NCBI RefSeq assembly: GCF_029626025.1
Contig: NZ_JARUBF010000001.1
Coordinates: 4,868,001 to 4,932,000, forward strand
Direction: 5' to 3'
Source: Solwaraspora sp. WMMD406
GTDB taxonomy: Bacteria > Actinomycetota > Actinomycetes > Mycobacteriales > Micromonosporaceae
DNA: 64,000 bases
Shown: in pieces, positions 25,385 through 57,326 of the stretch
Layout of the letters: every line of letters starts with the position of its first letter
Numbering within the stretch: the stretch's first letter is position 1
The notes under the pieces: model-generated
The model's input: only the letters and a program-made list of their open reading frames with translations
The model's database searches: none
Told to the model about the DNA's origin: nothing
Program-made: the position numbers and the translations under genes

Positions 25385-25481
25385 GTCATCCACCGGCTGA
25401 TTCGTCGAACAGGCGCACACCATACCAAGGGAATCCAGAAACCGACCTGGTCATGACCGGCCGGTGTGTCCGAACCGATCG

Positions 25482-25520
25482 ACCGCACCGATCAACCGCA
25501 CCGATCAACCGCACCGATCG
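25482..25520. repeat. Three tandem 13-bp units (ACCGCACCGATCA)
   Basis: Units at 25482-25494, 25495-25507 and 25508-25520 differ only in the last base of the third; partial copies flank both sides. They lie between the AKR stop and the GGDEF-EAL gene start. Confidence 0.85.
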
Positions 25521-25546
25521 ACCGTGCCGACGTGCGGTGTGGGATC

Positions 25547-27566: not shown

Positions 27567-27622
27567 TTCCACGCCACGAGTTCCACGCCACGAGTTCCAC
27601 GCCACGAGTTCCACGCCACGAG
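27567..27622. repeat. Four perfect 14-bp tandem units (TTCCACGCCACGAG)
   Basis: Copies at 27567-27580, 27581-27594, 27595-27608 and 27609-27622 lie in the divergent gap between the SDR and thioesterase genes, ending 30 bp upstream of the TTG start. Copy number may vary between strains. Confidence 0.9.
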
Positions 27623-41188: not shown

Positions 41189-41401
41189 ATGCGAAAGCCA
41201 CCGGGGCGATTCACGGGTGATTCCGTACCCGACCGACCAGCGCCCGACGAGAACGGCTCCGGTGTGGACGGCAGCGGTTCGACCGGGGCCGGAGCGGACG
41301 GCGATCACGGCCCGACACCCGACGGCCCGACACCCGACGGCCCGACACCCGACGGCCCGACACCCGACGGCGACCGCCGCGACCCGTACCAACCCCTGTA
41401 A
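41189..41401 (+). CDS. Doubtful small ORF with PTPDG repeats
   Basis: A 70-codon frame between the LAL regulator and the subtilase genes. Its central part is four in-frame GPTPD repeats encoded by a perfect 15-bp tandem array; the rest is Gly/Asp/Pro-rich with no structure. There is no ribosome site before the ATG and no signal peptide. The array is a multiple of three, so it would stay open by chance. I rate it as more likely non-coding than coding. Confidence 0.25.
   Translation: MRKPPGRFTGDSVPDRPAPDENGSGVDGSGSTGAGADGDHGPTPDGPTPDGPTPDGPTPDGDRRDPYQPL
41309..41368. repeat. Four perfect 15-bp tandem units (GGCCCGACACCCGAC)
   Basis: Copies at 41309-41323, 41324-41338, 41339-41353 and 41354-41368, upstream of the subtilase gene. 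Confidence 0.9.
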
Positions 41402-47664: not shown

Positions 47665-47919
47665 CTACCCTTCGTAGTGGTACCGGCAGGCGACGATCTC
47701 GACGTCTTCCTTGGTGATCCGGTACACGAGCCGGTGTTCGCGATCGATCCGGCGGGACCAGAATCCGGACAGCTCGCCACGAAGGGGTTCCGGCTTACCG
47801 ATGCCCTCGTAACCGTTGCGCATCACGTCGGCAATAAGGTCGTTGATCCGTTTGATCAACTTTCGATCGGTATGACTGAGGTACTGGGCCCATGCCGTAG
47901 CGGCGAAGACCAGTCTCAC
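47665..47919 (-). CDS. yoeB: YoeB/Txe-family toxin
   Basis: An 84-residue toxin of the RelE superfamily that cleaves mRNA in the ribosomal A site. The family marks are FAATAWAQY at the start, the KLIKRINDLIAD helix, GIGKPEPLRGELSGFWSRRI, HRLVYRI and the closing CRYHYEG, which includes the catalytic Arg/His/Tyr end. It overlaps the upstream antitoxin by 4 bp, so both are co-translated. Confidence 0.93.
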   Translation of the reverse strand: MRLVFAATAWAQYLSHTDRKLIKRINDLIADVMRNGYEGIGKPEPLRGELSGFWSRRIDREHRLVYRITKEDVEIVACRYHYEG

Positions 47920-48191
47920 GCAGCGTCCCGTTCGGCGGCTGGATCGACCAGCTCCCGCTCCTGCGCATCGCCGTTTTCCAGCTCCGCGATCGATCGCCGC
48001 AGGGCTGCGGCGTTGCTCGGGTTGCGGAGCAGGTACTCGGTCTCCTTCATCGACTCGTACTCGGCGAGCGGTACGATGACGACCGGCTCATGACCTGACC
48101 GGGTCACCACGACCTCCTCGGCGTCGTTGACGACGCTGTCGAGCTCGGCAGCCAGATTCTGCCTCAGCTGGGTGAAGTTCACCGTCCGCAT
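47916..48191 (-). CDS. yefM: YefM/Phd-family antitoxin
   Basis: A 91-residue antitoxin. The N-terminal DNA-binding Phd/YefM fold is clear: TVNFTQLRQNLAAELDSV, VVVTRSGHEPVVIVPLAEYES. The C-terminal part (LLRNPSNAAALRRSIAELE) should wrap the YoeB toxin. The complex normally represses its own promoter. ATG 48191 is favoured by GGAGG 5 nt upstream; an in-frame GTG at 48197 overlaps that site. The acidic tail ends four bases into the toxin gene. Confidence 0.93.
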   Translation of the reverse strand: MRTVNFTQLRQNLAAELDSVVNDAEEVVVTRSGHEPVVIVPLAEYESMKETEYLLRNPSNAAALRRSIAELENGDAQERELVDPAAERDAA

Positions 48192-48246
48192 GATCACCTC
48201 CGCAGGTACAGAAAATTGTACCCCAAGCGGCGGCTCCGGTCAGACC

Positions 48247-49971: not shown

Positions 49972-50940
49972 ATGGAGAAGCGAACCCTCGGCAGCCTCGG
50001 ACCGGTCAGCGTCCTCACCCTCGGCGGGGGTGGGCTGGGCCAGGTCTGGGGCACCACCGACCGGGACGAGGCGGTGGCGACCGTACGGGAGGCGGTCGAC
50101 GCCGGCATCGACCTGCTCGACGTCGCCCCCGGCTACGGCGACGGCGAAGCGGAACGGGTGGTCGGCGCGGCGTACGGTGGCAGCCTGCCGGCCGGCGTAC
50201 GGGTCGTCACCAAGTGCGGGCTTGGCAACCCGGCCGCCGGTGACGTCGCGGCCCTAGTGGAGAAGTCCCTCGACGACAGCCTGGAGCGCATGCGGCTGTC
50301 CACGGTCGACGTATTGCTGCTGCACAACCCGATCGTGGCGCAGGCCGCGCCGGGCACGACCGGAGTGACCTCGGCGGACCTGTTCGACGAGGCCGTCCGA
50401 CCAGCGTTCGAGGACCTGGTCCGGCGCGGCCGGATCGGCGCCTGGGGAATCACCGCCGTCGAGGAGCCGGACGCGATCATCCGGGTGTTCGGCGAGCAGC
50501 CGCCGCCGGCGGTCGCCCAGTGTGTGACGAACCTGCTCGACTCCCCCGGCGATCTGCTGCGGCCGGACGGCGAGGGCTCCCGGCCACTCGACATCCTGTC
50601 GGCCGCCGGCCGGTACGGCGTCGGGGTGATGGGTATCCGCGCGGTCGCGGCCGGCGCGTTCACCGACGCCGTGGACCGAGACCTGCCGCCAGAGCATCCG
50701 ACCATGGTGGACTTCGAGCGGGCCGCGCCGCTGCGCGATCTGGCCGGTGAGCTGGGTGAGTCCGCCGCGTCGCTGGCGCACCGGTACACGCTGTCGATGC
50801 CGGGCGTCGACACCGTCGTCCTCGGCGTGAAGAACCGCGTCGAGCTGCGGGAGTGCCTCGCGGCGGCGGCCGCCGGCGCGCTCTCGGCCGACCTGATGGC
50901 GACCATCGACGCCCGCGTCGGCGCTCAGACACCCAAGTAG
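49972..50940 (+). CDS. Aldo/keto reductase
   Basis: A 322-residue aldo/keto reductase of the family that includes sugar dehydrogenases and plant-type reductases. The tetrad is present: Asp in [12 protein letters not shown] with Tyr, Lys in VVTKCGL, and His in LLLHNP. The C-terminal [22 protein letters not shown] binds the cofactor phosphate. It differs from the AKR at 25547 in sequence. The ATG follows GAAGGA. Its 3' end overlaps the ancestral stop position of the converging kptA remnant by 16 nt. Confidence 0.88.
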
Positions 50941-51370
50941 CGGGGCGGCACCGCGTCGGTGAGCCATACCCCGTTTGCGCTGCGGTAAAAGCTGCGGTAA
51001 ACAGGTGGCCGTCTCGCGCCATCGCCGCCGCGTTGACGGTGAGGACCACGACGCCACCGGCCCGTCGGGCACCGACCCGACGGGCCGTGTCGGTGTCGGC
51101 CGACAGGTGCACGTGGTGTCGCCGGGCCCGGTGCAGCCCGGTGGCCCGGATCGAGTCGAGCGCGGCGGCGGTCGTGCCGTGGTAGAGCCGTTCCGGCGGT
51201 GGCTGCGCGACCAGCCCCAGGTCGATCCGGACCGAGTGTCCCTGGTTGGCCCGGATCTGCTCGGTGCCGTCGGGGTCGCGGCGCAGCGCCAGCAACATCC
51301 GTTTACTCAATTTGACCAATACCTTGTCGTTCGCACCGGCATTGTCGCCGTACGGCGCACCCGCCCGCAT
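50925..51370 (-). pseudogene. kptA: RNA 2'-phosphotransferase (KptA/Tpt1) remnant, two lesions
   Basis: The core of KptA, which transfers the 2'-phosphate of spliced tRNA to NAD, is plain: [65 protein letters not shown]. First lesion: the N-terminal winged-helix with the catalytic Arg-His is missing; [12 protein letters not shown] runs directly into [16 protein letters not shown]. Second lesion: an 11-bp duplication (GCTGCGGTAAAA followed by GCTGCGGTAAA on the plus strand, about 50982-51004) shifts the frame, and the expected end [16 protein letters not shown] is read in another frame, stopping at 50925. The shifted frame runs on antisense through the neighbouring gene to 50660. Confidence 0.8.
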
Positions 51371-51383
51371 CGGCATTGTCGCC
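51332..51383. repeat. 18-bp direct repeat at the decayed gene junction
   Basis: CGCACCGGCATTGTCGCC (51332-51349) and CGCATCGGCATTGTCGCC (51366-51383) differ at one base. They lie between the frameshifted membrane gene and the kptA remnant. Confidence 0.8.
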
Positions 51384-51407
51384 AGCCCAGCACGCCCCAC
51401 CAGAGCA

Positions 51408-52025
51408 TCACCGGTAGATGCAGGACGTAGCCGAGCTGTTCCACCGCGGCGGAGGCCCGGCGGTCCCGGTCGTCCAGGGCAGGACCACGGCGGCGAGGCC
51501 GGACGCCGTGGCGGCCATCCCGGCCCGCCGTAGCCCGGTCGGCACCGCTGTGTCGGACGCGGCCACCACGGTCGCGGCCACCCAGAGCAGCCCGGCCAGG
51601 TTGACCATCCACTTCGCGGTGAGCAGCACGCCTTCCGCCACGGCGGCGGCAGCGGGTTCGGTGGGGTCGGCGGCGAGCTGGGTGACCGCCAGGTTCCCGG
51701 CGTCGTGCAGCAGCCCGGCCAGGCCGGCACCGGCCAACAGCCCACCGGCCGGTGCCGCCAGATGGGAGCGGGTGCCGTCAGCACGCGCGGCCAGCACCAG
51801 ACCGGCGGCGAGCAGGGCGAGCCAGCCGATCACGTCGAAGGCCAACTCGATCAGGTGTAGTTCGACCCGGGCGTGCACGGCCGCCAGCACGGCGGCCGGG
51901 TCGGCCGAATTCAGGGTCAACCCGGATGGCACGACAATGCCGACACCGGCGAGCATGGCAAGCAACGACCCCAGCAGCAGTACGCCCGTCAGCCGGGCGG
52001 CGGAATCGCGTTCAACGGCACTCAT
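51408..52025 (-). pseudogene. DUF4386-like membrane protein, probably frameshifted near the 3' end
   Basis: The frame encodes 205 residues with five or six hydrophobic segments ([73 protein letters not shown]), typical of DUF4386-like proteins. After [14 protein letters not shown] the frame turns into [13 protein letters not shown] and stops, while a neighbouring frame reads [20 protein letters not shown], the expected last membrane helix, to about 51384. One indel near 51440-51470 would join them. The gene has a MerR-type promoter and a leaderless start. A sequencing error is the main alternative. Confidence 0.65.
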
Positions 52026-53544: not shown

Positions 53545-54552
53545 TCAGCCAGTGAGGAAGCGGTGGGCGTTTCCGCCGCGTAGGGCGACCCGCTGGTCGG
53601 CGGTGAGGAAGTCCGCCTTGTCGACCACCGCGCCGACCGGCCGCTCCCCCAATGGGTACGGGTAGTCGCTGCCCAGCAGCACCTGGTCGGCACCCATCGT
53701 GTCGACCAGCAGCCGCAGCGCCGCCGGGTCGAACACCACCGAGTCGACGTAGAACCGGTCCAGGTAGTGGCTGGGCGGGTGCGCCGAGCGGCCGCGTACC
53801 ACGTCGCCGCGCCGGTGCCAGGCGTTGTCGGCGCGGCCCAGCCAGAACGGGAAGCTGCCGCCGCCGTGGGCGAAGCAGATCCGCAGCGTACGGGGCAGCT
53901 GGTCGAAGCCGCCGCCGAGGATCAGCGCCAGGATCGACAGGTGGGTCTCGGCGGGCATACCGGACAGCCACCGGGCCATCCACCGGTCCAGCCGGGGCCC
54001 GGACGGCATGTCCCACGGATGGACGAAGACCGGTGCGCCGGCGTCGGCGCAGTGCCGCAGGAAGGCGACGATGCCAGCGTCGTCGAGGTCGCGGTCACCG
54101 ACGTGGTTGCCGATCTCTACCCCGGCATGCCCGGCGGCGAGGCAGCGGTCCAGTTCGGCGCAGGCCGCGTCCGGGTCCTGCAACGGCACCTGGCAGAACG
54201 GCACCAGCCGGCCACCGCCAGCGGCGGTGACCTCCAGCGTCAGGTCGTTGAAGATCCGCGCCACCTTGACCGCCTGATCGGCCGGTCGGTCGTAGGCGAA
54301 GAACACCGGCGTCGGCGAGACCACCTGCACGTCGACCCCGTCGGCGGCCATATCGGCCAGCCGGGTGGGCGGGTCCCAGGTCTGCGGGCCGACCGGCCGG
54401 AACTCCGTCTGACCCACCATGATCATGGCGGCGCGTTCGGAGTCGATCCGCAGCCACGGCCAGCCGGTCCCGCCGCAGGCGGCGGCGAGATCCGGCCAGC
54501 CCTTGGGCACCAGGTGGGTGTGGACGTCGATGGTCCGCTCGGCGACGGTCAC
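53545..54552 (-). CDS. 2-amino-3-carboxymuconate-6-semialdehyde decarboxylase (ACMSD)
   Basis: A 335-residue amidohydrolase-fold enzyme that removes CO2 from the ring-cleavage product of 3-hydroxyanthranilate, giving 2-aminomuconate semialdehyde and steering flux away from quinolinate. The zinc ligands are visible: VHTH near the N-terminus, the His in FVHPWDM, the His in CFAHGGGSFPFWLGR and the Asp in LLGSDYPYPLG. Length fits the family. GTG 54552 lies 8 nt after the HAO stop; initiation probably depends on coupling, as no clear ribosome site is seen. It is the last gene of the operon. Confidence 0.93.
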   Translation of the reverse strand: MTVAERTIDVHTHLVPKGWPDLAAACGGTGWPWLRIDSERAAMIMVGQTEFRPVGPQTWDPPTRLADMAADGVDVQVVSPTPVFFAYDRPADQAVKVARIFNDLTLEVTAAGGGRLVPFCQVPLQDPDAACAELDRCLAAGHAGVEIGNHVGDRDLDDAGIVAFLRHCADAGAPVFVHPWDMPSGPRLDRWMARWLSGMPAETHLSILALILGGGFDQLPRTLRICFAHGGGSFPFWLGRADNAWHRRGDVVRGRSAHPPSHYLDRFYVDSVVFDPAALRLLVDTMGADQVLLGSDYPYPLGERPVGAVVDKADFLTADQRVALRGGNAHRFLTG

Positions 54553-54560
54553 GGCACTAC

Positions 54561-55085
54561 TCAGCCCTTGCCCGGGTGCAGGGCACCGCACTTGTCGCAG
54601 GTACGGGCGGACTCGTCACCGTAGAAGGCGGTGAACACCGGCGGCAGGTCGGCGACGATGTCACGTACCTGCAGCTCGACGGAGTGCACCAGGTTGCCGC
54701 AGTCGAGGCAGTACCACTGGAACTTCTCCAGGGTGCCCTCCTCGCGGACCCGCTCGATGACGACCCCGATCGAGCCTGGCTCGGGGCGTTGCGGCGAGTG
54801 CGGTACGAATCCGGGCAGCACCCACATCTGACCTTCCCGGATGTGCACCGTCTGCGGACCGTCGTCGGTCATCAGGTTGACGTGCATGTTGCCTTTGACC
54901 TGGTAGAAGAACTCCTCGTACGGGTCGACGTGGAAGTCGGTGCGCTGGTTGGGGCCGCCGACGACCTGCACGATGAAATCGTCGCCGGTGGGGAACAGCT
55001 GCTTGTTGTTCACCGGCGGCTTGAGCAGATGCTCGTTCTCGCTGACCCAGTGGGGGAAGTTGACCGGTTCGGCGATGTCGCTCAC
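54561..55085 (-). CDS. nbaC: 3-hydroxyanthranilate 3,4-dioxygenase
   Basis: A 174-residue cupin dioxygenase that opens the ring of 3-hydroxyanthranilate. The iron ligands are in RTDFHVDPYEEFFYQ (His, Glu) and VPHSPQRPE (His). The C-terminal rubredoxin-like zinc site CLDCG...CDKCG is present, as in bacterial and some fungal enzymes. I chose the GTG at 55085, since AAGGAG lies 8 nt upstream and the family starts near SDIAEPVNFPHW; a GTG at 55094 overlaps that site. Confidence 0.95.
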   Translation of the reverse strand: MSDIAEPVNFPHWVSENEHLLKPPVNNKQLFPTGDDFIVQVVGGPNQRTDFHVDPYEEFFYQVKGNMHVNLMTDDGPQTVHIREGQMWVLPGFVPHSPQRPEPGSIGVVIERVREEGTLEKFQWYCLDCGNLVHSVELQVRDIVADLPPVFTAFYGDESARTCDKCGALHPGKG

Positions 55086-55090
55086 GGGTG

Positions 55091-55522
55091 TCACTCCTTC
55101 CGGGTGGAGGCGTCGGCCGGTGCCACGGCGATGGCCTGGATCTCGATGAGTAGGTGTGGGTGGGGTAGTTGGTGGACGGCGACGGTGGTGCGGGTGGGTC
55201 CGGTGTGGTCGAAGTGTTCGGCCCAGATCTGGTTGTAGCCGCCGAAGTCGTTCATGTTGGTCAGGTAGGTGGTGACGGAGACGAGGTCGGTGAGGCTGGC
55301 GCCGGCGGCGGTGAGCAGGTCGGCGATGTTGGCGATGACGGCGCGGGTCTGTTCGCGGATGTCGAGTTGGGTGGTGCCGTAGGCGTCGACGGTGGCGCCG
55401 GCGATGGTGTTGTCGGGGCGGCGGCTGGAGGTGCCGGAGACGAAGATGAACCCGCCGGCGACCTTGACGTGTGGGAACGCCCCACGCGGGGTGGCCTTGC
55501 CGGCGACCAGGTGCGCGGTCAC
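55091..55522 (-). CDS. RidA-family 2-aminomuconate deaminase
   Basis: A 143-residue RidA/YjgF-fold protein. The conserved Arg in GPTRTTVAV and the Glu in LIEIQAIA are the residues that act in imine deamination, and the [10 protein letters not shown] and [11 protein letters not shown] segments fit. In this operon the expected reaction is 2-aminomuconate to 4-oxalocrotonate, as in the nba and amn pathways. GTG 55522 follows GGAGG and overlaps the stop of the upstream decarboxylase in a GTGA junction; the longer frame to 55804 is a shadow. Confidence 0.88.
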
Positions 55523-56298
55523 GGCGTACCTCCGATCGTGGTGAAGGCGGCGGTGCCGAGCCCTTGCACAGTGGCCCGCACGTGGACGCCGCGTGGGAGG
55601 GGGACGGCGGCGGTGGCCGCGCCGGCCAGGAAGATCCAGCCTGGTTGGAGGGCCGGGCCGTGCCGGTCGGCCAGCGCGACGCCGGCGGCGAGGGCCCGGC
55701 GGGGGTCGCCGAGGATGGCCGCCGTCGACCCGGTCTGCACTGTGCGTCCGTCCACGTCCAGCAGTACGCCGAGATTGTCGACGCCGGCCGGGACCGGCTG
55801 CCACGGCCCGATGGTGAACAGGGCGGCCGAGGTGTTGTCGGCGATCACATCAGGCAGCGAAAAGGTGAAGTCGGCGTACCGGGAGTCGATGACCTCCAGG
55901 GCGGGGGCGACGGCCCGGACCGCGTCGGTGAACGGCATCCCGGGGGTCGGCGGACGGTCCAGCAGGAAGGCGATCTCCGGTTCGACGCGGGGGTGGATCA
56001 GCCCGGAGATGTCGACGCTGCCGCCGTCGGGTACGGCGGTGGCGTCGGTGAGCTGGCCGAGGATCGGGGAGTCGACGCCGACCTGCGCCATCTTCGCCTT
56101 GCTCGTCAGCCCCATCTTCGCACCGACGAGCCGTTCACCACGGCCGGTACGGCGGGCGATCAGCGCCTGCTGCACCGCGTAGGCGGTGTCGACGTCGACG
56201 CCGTACGCCTCGGCGAGTTGCGGGATCGGGGTGCCGGTGACCGCCGCGTCGTCGAGCCGGGCGGCCAACCCGGCGAGGTCGACGTCTGTGCTGGTCAC
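55519..56298 (-). CDS. 4-oxalocrotonate decarboxylase / 2-oxo-3-hexenedioate decarboxylase
   Basis: A 259-residue member of the hydratase/decarboxylase branch of the FAH superfamily. The metal ligands are in EPEIAFLL (Glu-x-Glu) and the conserved Lys in [13 protein letters not shown]. Of the two related proteins in the operon, this one, next to the deaminase gene, is the better decarboxylase candidate, giving 2-oxopent-4-enoate; the other (58249) would be the hydratase. The two could be swapped, since they are similar and usually form a complex. GTG start with GGAGG. Confidence 0.85.
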
Positions 56299-57326
56299 TG
56301 CACACCTCCGTGGGCGGTGCGGGGGGTGTCGGCGAGGTCGAGGGCGACGTCGGTGATCATGTCTTCCTGGCCGCCGACCATCCGTCGGCGGCCGAGTTCG
56401 ATCAGGATGGACCGCACGTCCAGGTTGTAGCGGTCGGCGGCGCGTTCGGCGTGGCGCAGGAAGCTGGAGTAGACGCCGGCGTAGCCCAGCGACAGGGTTT
56501 CCCGGTCGACGCGGACCGGCCGGTCCTGCAACGGCCGGACCAGGTCCTCGGCGGCGTCCATCAGCGCGAACGTGTCGCAGCCGTGTTCCCAGCCGTGCAG
56601 GTCGGCGACGGCGGTGAACACTTCCAGGGGGGCGTTGCCGGCCCCGGCGCCCATGCCGGCGAGGGAGGCGTCGACCCGGGTGGTGCCATGCTCGACGGCG
56701 ATCACGCTGTTGGCCACGCCCAGCGACAGGTTGTGGTGGGCGTGGATACCGATCTGCGTGTGCGGGTCGAGGACCTGCCGGTAGGCGTCGACCCGCTGGG
56801 CGACGTCGGTCATCAGCAGCCGGCCGCCGGAGTCGGTGACGTAGACGCAGTGCGCCCCGTACGACTCCATCAGTTTGGCCTGCCCGGCGAGCCCTTCCGG
56901 GGTGTTCATGTGCGCCATCATCAGGAACCCGGCGACGTCCATACCGTGGTCGCGGGCCCAGCCGATGTGTTGGGCGGCGACGTCGGCCTCGGTGCAGTGG
57001 GTGGCGATCCGCACACTGGTCACCCCGAGGTCGCGGGCCGCTTTCAGGTCGTCGATGGTGCCGATGCCGGGCAGCAGCAACGTGGTCAACGTCGCCCGGT
57101 CGACCACGTCGGCGGCAGCACGGATCCAGTCGGCGTCCGACGCCGCGCCGTGGCCGTAGGTGACGCTGGAGCCGGCCAGGCCGTCGCCGTGGGCGACCTC
57201 GATCGCGTCCACCCCGGCCGCGTCCAACGCCGCCGCGATCGCCCGGACCTGCCCGACGGTGTAGCGGTGCCTGATGGCGTGCATGCCGTCGCGCAACGTG
57301 ACGTCCTGGACGTACAGCCGGGTCAT
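56295..57326 (-). CDS. 4-hydroxy-2-oxovalerate aldolase
   Basis: A 343-residue DRE-TIM metallolyase (MhpE/DmpG type) that splits 4-hydroxy-2-oxovalerate to pyruvate and acetaldehyde. Conserved parts are [12 protein letters not shown] (Arg, Asp metal ligand), the acid [15 protein letters not shown] and the metal-binding [11 protein letters not shown]. The C-terminal helical communication domain is present. It normally channels acetaldehyde to the next enzyme, whose gene overlaps by 4 bp. ATG with GGAGG. Confidence 0.95.

Follow-up and report, generated by a model that had tools for sequence, protein, structure and literature searches.

A partial kptA reading frame on the minus strand of Solwaraspora sp. 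WMMD406 raises the question of whether this actinomycete still makes an RNA 2'-phosphotransferase or carries only its relic. KptA family activities include the removal of 2'-phosphates and, for archaeal KptA, the erasure of Up47 (PMC9095486). The frame lies in the window, the whole 64,000-nucleotide stretch of DNA analysed here (NZ_JARUBF010000001.1, positions 4,868,001 to 4,932,000), in which a preliminary description had proposed that kptA is decaying, having lost an N-terminal module and gained a short duplication that shifts the frame. Comparison with intact orthologs in six congeners, four of them syntenic, bore this out, and we are highly confident that the locus is a recent unitary pseudogene, the sole kptA copy in the genome. 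The features concerned are as follows:

50926–51334, minus strand: kptA pseudogene, relic of an RNA 2'-phosphotransferase (PF01885), spanning the site of the lost start codon through the ancestral stop; partial PF01885 match and alignment with six intact orthologs
51332–51334, minus strand: ancestral GTG start codon, now GCG
51282–51289, minus strand: point at which 141 bp (47 codons) were deleted in frame, with one copy of the direct repeat GCGCTGCG left; a 141-column alignment gap
50979–51001, minus strand: TTTACCGCAGC-T-TTTACCGCAGC, duplicated in tandem with period 12, which leaves the gene a net 11 bp longer than in relatives and shifts the frame; repeat scan and ortholog alignment
50926–50981, minus strand: ancestral kptA C-terminus and stop codon in a shifted frame, the 3' end overlapping the convergent aldo/keto reductase gene
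51408–52025, minus strand: upstream membrane-protein gene, C-terminus truncated by a 1-bp deletion near 51453/51454; comparison with congeners
49972–50940, plus strand: aldo/keto reductase gene (PF00248), convergent neighbour, intact; Pfam match

Family membership of the fragment is clear. PF01885 matches the first kptA frame on the minus strand (E = 8.5e-20) across profile positions 71–166 of 177, with a score of about 70–72 bits against a curated cut-off of 26; the stricter NCBIfam equivalog cut-off is missed (119.8 versus 239). The best PDB match is 7kw8. All six congeners carry a single kptA that matches the whole PF01885 model at 153–158 bits, and a search of the window genome for a second copy found none, returning the fragment as its single match. 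G002, G003, G004 and G005 share a collinear neighbourhood with the window, with 87–91% DNA identity over kptA and the upstream gene, so that these four kptA genes are orthologs in place; in G001 and G006, kptA is found without the upstream gene beside it. The overlap between kptA and a convergent aldo/keto reductase gene is likewise present at locus L005. Thus, orthologs are intact in relatives, in place where syntenic, and the window genome has no intact copy. Compared with KptA/Tpt1 (PF01885; Clostridium thermocellum Tpt1, PDB 6e3a), the window gene keeps the NAD+ lobe, the RVGxRR motif and the syntenic place of its orthologs, and is 89% identical to the G003 ortholog in the aligned part, whereas the family start codon and most of the RNA lobe are missing and the C-terminus is out of frame. 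DNA alignment against the six congeneric orthologs resolved these defects into three independent disabling lesions: loss of the start codon, the 141-bp deletion and the +11-bp frameshift.

The start-codon lesion had gone unmentioned in the preliminary description, as had the 1-bp deletion in the upstream gene. At 51332–51334, the window reads GCG where all six congeners keep GTG, and of 28 additional loci, chiefly from Micromonosporaceae, nearly all read GTG or ATG at this site; several of these 28 also have in-frame stops upstream of it. A hexamer, xACAAT or xACACT, commonly stands about 6–8 bases ahead of the kptA start in Micromonosporaceae (L056–L083) and is intact in the window. Its spacing to the start resembles that of leaderless actinobacterial genes, and its presence suggests that kptA of Micromonosporaceae is read from a leaderless transcript. 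No sigma-70 promoter or terminator consensus was found near kptA. Two 18-bp copies of CGCACCGGCATTGTCGCC, 94% alike, lie at 51332–51349 and 51366–51383, upstream of kptA. Both the GTG-to-GCG change and a base private to the window in the other repeat bring the two closer together, a likening that resembles gene conversion and may also be due to chance.

Directly after ATGTTGCTG, the window gene lacks exactly 141 bp, or 47 codons in frame, and the junction reads LALRRDP where relatives read LALRHAP...KQRFALRRDP. This deletion is what the preliminary description had perceived as a missing Arg-His module ahead of the RDPDG segment. In relatives such as G003, GCGCTGCG is present at both deletion ends; the shared stretch measures 8 bp in G003, 10 bp in G004 and only 3 bp in G001, and at least 8 bp is shared by about 0.06% of random endpoint pairs within kptA. 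Since both ends share a direct repeat, the deletion probably arose by slippage or short-repeat recombination. Its consequences for catalysis were assessed by mapping residues through the PDB alignment to 6e3a, using the numbering of Clostridium thermocellum Tpt1, whose catalytic tetrad is Arg18-His19-Arg68-Arg121 (PMC6333775). The deletion takes most of the winged-helix RNA lobe, including the Arg68 equivalent, and leaves the His19 equivalent replaced by Arg; the equivalents of Arg18 and Arg121 are kept, and two of the four catalytic residues are therefore gone. The earlier statement that all KptA core motifs remain is therefore incorrect. Neither lobe is whole: the RNA lobe (aa 1–85) is short of 47 codons, and the end of the NAD+ lobe is out of frame.

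The third lesion lies near the 3' end, where GCTGCGGTAAA occurs twice, at 50979–50989 and 50991–51001, in an array of period 12. The coding strand reads TTTACCGCAGC-TTTTACCGCAGC, and relatives carry a single TTCTAYCGCAGC. The duplication is missing from all six orthologs and makes a net length difference of +11 bp, beyond which the native C-terminus is open in another frame. What had been described as an 11-bp duplication thus stands as to the repeat, the shifted C-terminus and the net length, although the copies lie at a spacing of 12 bp. Duplicating 12 bp would by itself keep the frame, so that the frameshift comes from copies one base short, and the simplest history that the sequence offers would be a 12-bp duplication together with loss of one T. 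In shuffled sequence, exact 11-mers repeated at a distance of 11–14 are expected 0.2 times per 64 kb. This rarity would not by itself mark the repeat as a lesion, since short tandem arrays also occur elsewhere in the window; it counts as one because none of the six orthologs has it. These other arrays lie at 27567–27622 (period 14, 4.0 copies, 100%), at 25470–25524 (period 13, 4.2 copies) and at 41307–41371 (period 15, 4.3 copies, 100%); the period-15 array sits immediately upstream of a gene for a subtilisin/kelch-like protein.

Damage extends to the gene upstream. In G002–G005, the kptA start overlaps the stop codon of this gene (GTGTGA). Against all four syntenic congeners, the window gene has a 1-bp deletion near 51453/51454, by which the product becomes 205 aa, compared with 231 aa in G003, with its C-terminal part replaced. 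Pfam gave no match for this gene and NCBIfam none for its full-length G003 ortholog. The gene may be decaying as well, or may work with an altered end. Elsewhere in the window, a YefM/YoeB type II toxin-antitoxin pair was seen at 47665–48197 (minus strand), and a likely 3-hydroxyanthranilate degradation cluster at 53545–57326 (minus strand) comprises genes for 3-hydroxyanthranilate dioxygenase (PF06052), a 2-oxo-3-hexenedioate decarboxylase-like protein, 4-hydroxy-2-oxovalerate aldolase and an amidohydrolase-like protein.

Could both broken frames be artefacts of sequencing or assembly, such that the organism has an intact gene and the differences of one base are spurious? The kptA frameshift depends on a single T within a TTTT/TTT run, and that of the upstream gene on one base in a G/C-rich run, both plausible sites of base-calling error. 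A 141-bp deletion, a 12-bp repeat and a GTG-to-GCG change are, however, atypical of base calling, and a protein without the single-base shortfall would still be minus two of the four catalytic residues. The genome itself is assembled in 3 contigs and is 100% complete. We further compared the intact genes of four congeners with the window over its 64 kb; some 45 genes lent themselves to the comparison. Apart from kptA and the upstream gene, no frame break was private to the window, the other listed break being common to other congeners, and none of the roughly 45 other comparable genes had a private frameshift. This survey speaks against a poor assembly, and error was rejected as the main cause on its strength. 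On balance, we judge error a very unlikely source of the lesions.

A remodelled, short and functional KptA would instead consist of the NAD+ lobe alone and a new C-terminal tail running antisense through the neighbouring gene. Such a protein would fit a deletion that is in frame, an NAD lobe that keeps its HGT and HHVHLS motifs, a frame that remains open, and substitutions without clear relaxation. It would nonetheless have to do without the family start codon, the His19 and Arg68 equivalents and the conserved FYxSxNGVWLxDxVP strand, and the sequence for its new tail runs antisense to the gene for the aldo/keto reductase. Relatives sharing this architecture would have spoken against decay; none of the six aligned congeners (0/6) has it. 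Taken together, a short working KptA appears extremely improbable. In-frame starts further upstream do leave a long open frame over kptA (ORF 50660–51784), from which the fragment could be expressed and act as a stripped-down NAD+-lobe ADP-ribosyltransferase without an RNA lobe; to this we give hardly any credence.

The preferred reading, a unitary pseudogene, leaves the age of the loss to be considered. Private changes in 109 comparable codons amount to 4 non-synonymous and 3 synonymous, with pairwise dN/dS of 0.12–0.29; private ratios in neighbouring genes are similar to that of kptA, and the changes are so few that they neither support nor contradict relaxed selection. The surviving frame appears little eroded, which points either to recent decay or to a fragment that is still read, and we take a recent loss as the most likely. 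The indels would be products of slippage during replication or of recombination between short repeats, and no active KptA would now be made. In its repeat-joining deletion, tandem duplication, intact sister orthologs and absence of a second copy, the locus resembles other unitary bacterial pseudogenes with short-repeat indels. Nothing sets it apart as unusual among them; the overlapping upstream gene (stop/start) is also damaged. Our search of the open-access literature, with relevance judged from titles and abstracts, turned up no kptA pseudogene already described from this group.

A kptA match is present in 221 of 301 family genomes and missing from about a quarter. We inspected seven weak matches (G138, G287, G216, G177, G068, G158 and G077). 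That of G138 is a divergent, near-full-length relative, and the other six, all in near-complete genomes, are apparent remnants (L141, L143/L148, L144, L145, L146 and L147): G287 is split across two frames, G216 has lost much of the RNA lobe, G177, G068 and G158 hold the C-terminal part only, and G077 holds the N-terminal part only. The window pseudogene is like these in being a partial or frame-split kptA in an otherwise complete genome, whereas its lesions are independent of theirs and other parts are missing. With remnants in six genomes and no match in about a quarter, loss of kptA is recurrent in the family, and the decay described here is an ordinary example of it, if a clean one.

This recurrence agrees with observations in E. 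coli, where KptA is dispensable: a kptA knockout had no growth phenotype and no endogenous substrate was known (PMC6333775). Given both the laboratory E. coli result and the repeated loss within the family, loss of kptA in Solwaraspora sp. WMMD406 would have been tolerated, bacterial KptA being dispensable. The family holds intact, broken and absent kptA side by side, and thereby offers natural knock-outs for comparison. Such a comparison could reveal a partner gene, or a source of RNA 2'-phosphate, gained or lost alongside kptA, and the pseudogene in the window adds one data point on the role of KptA in bacteria.
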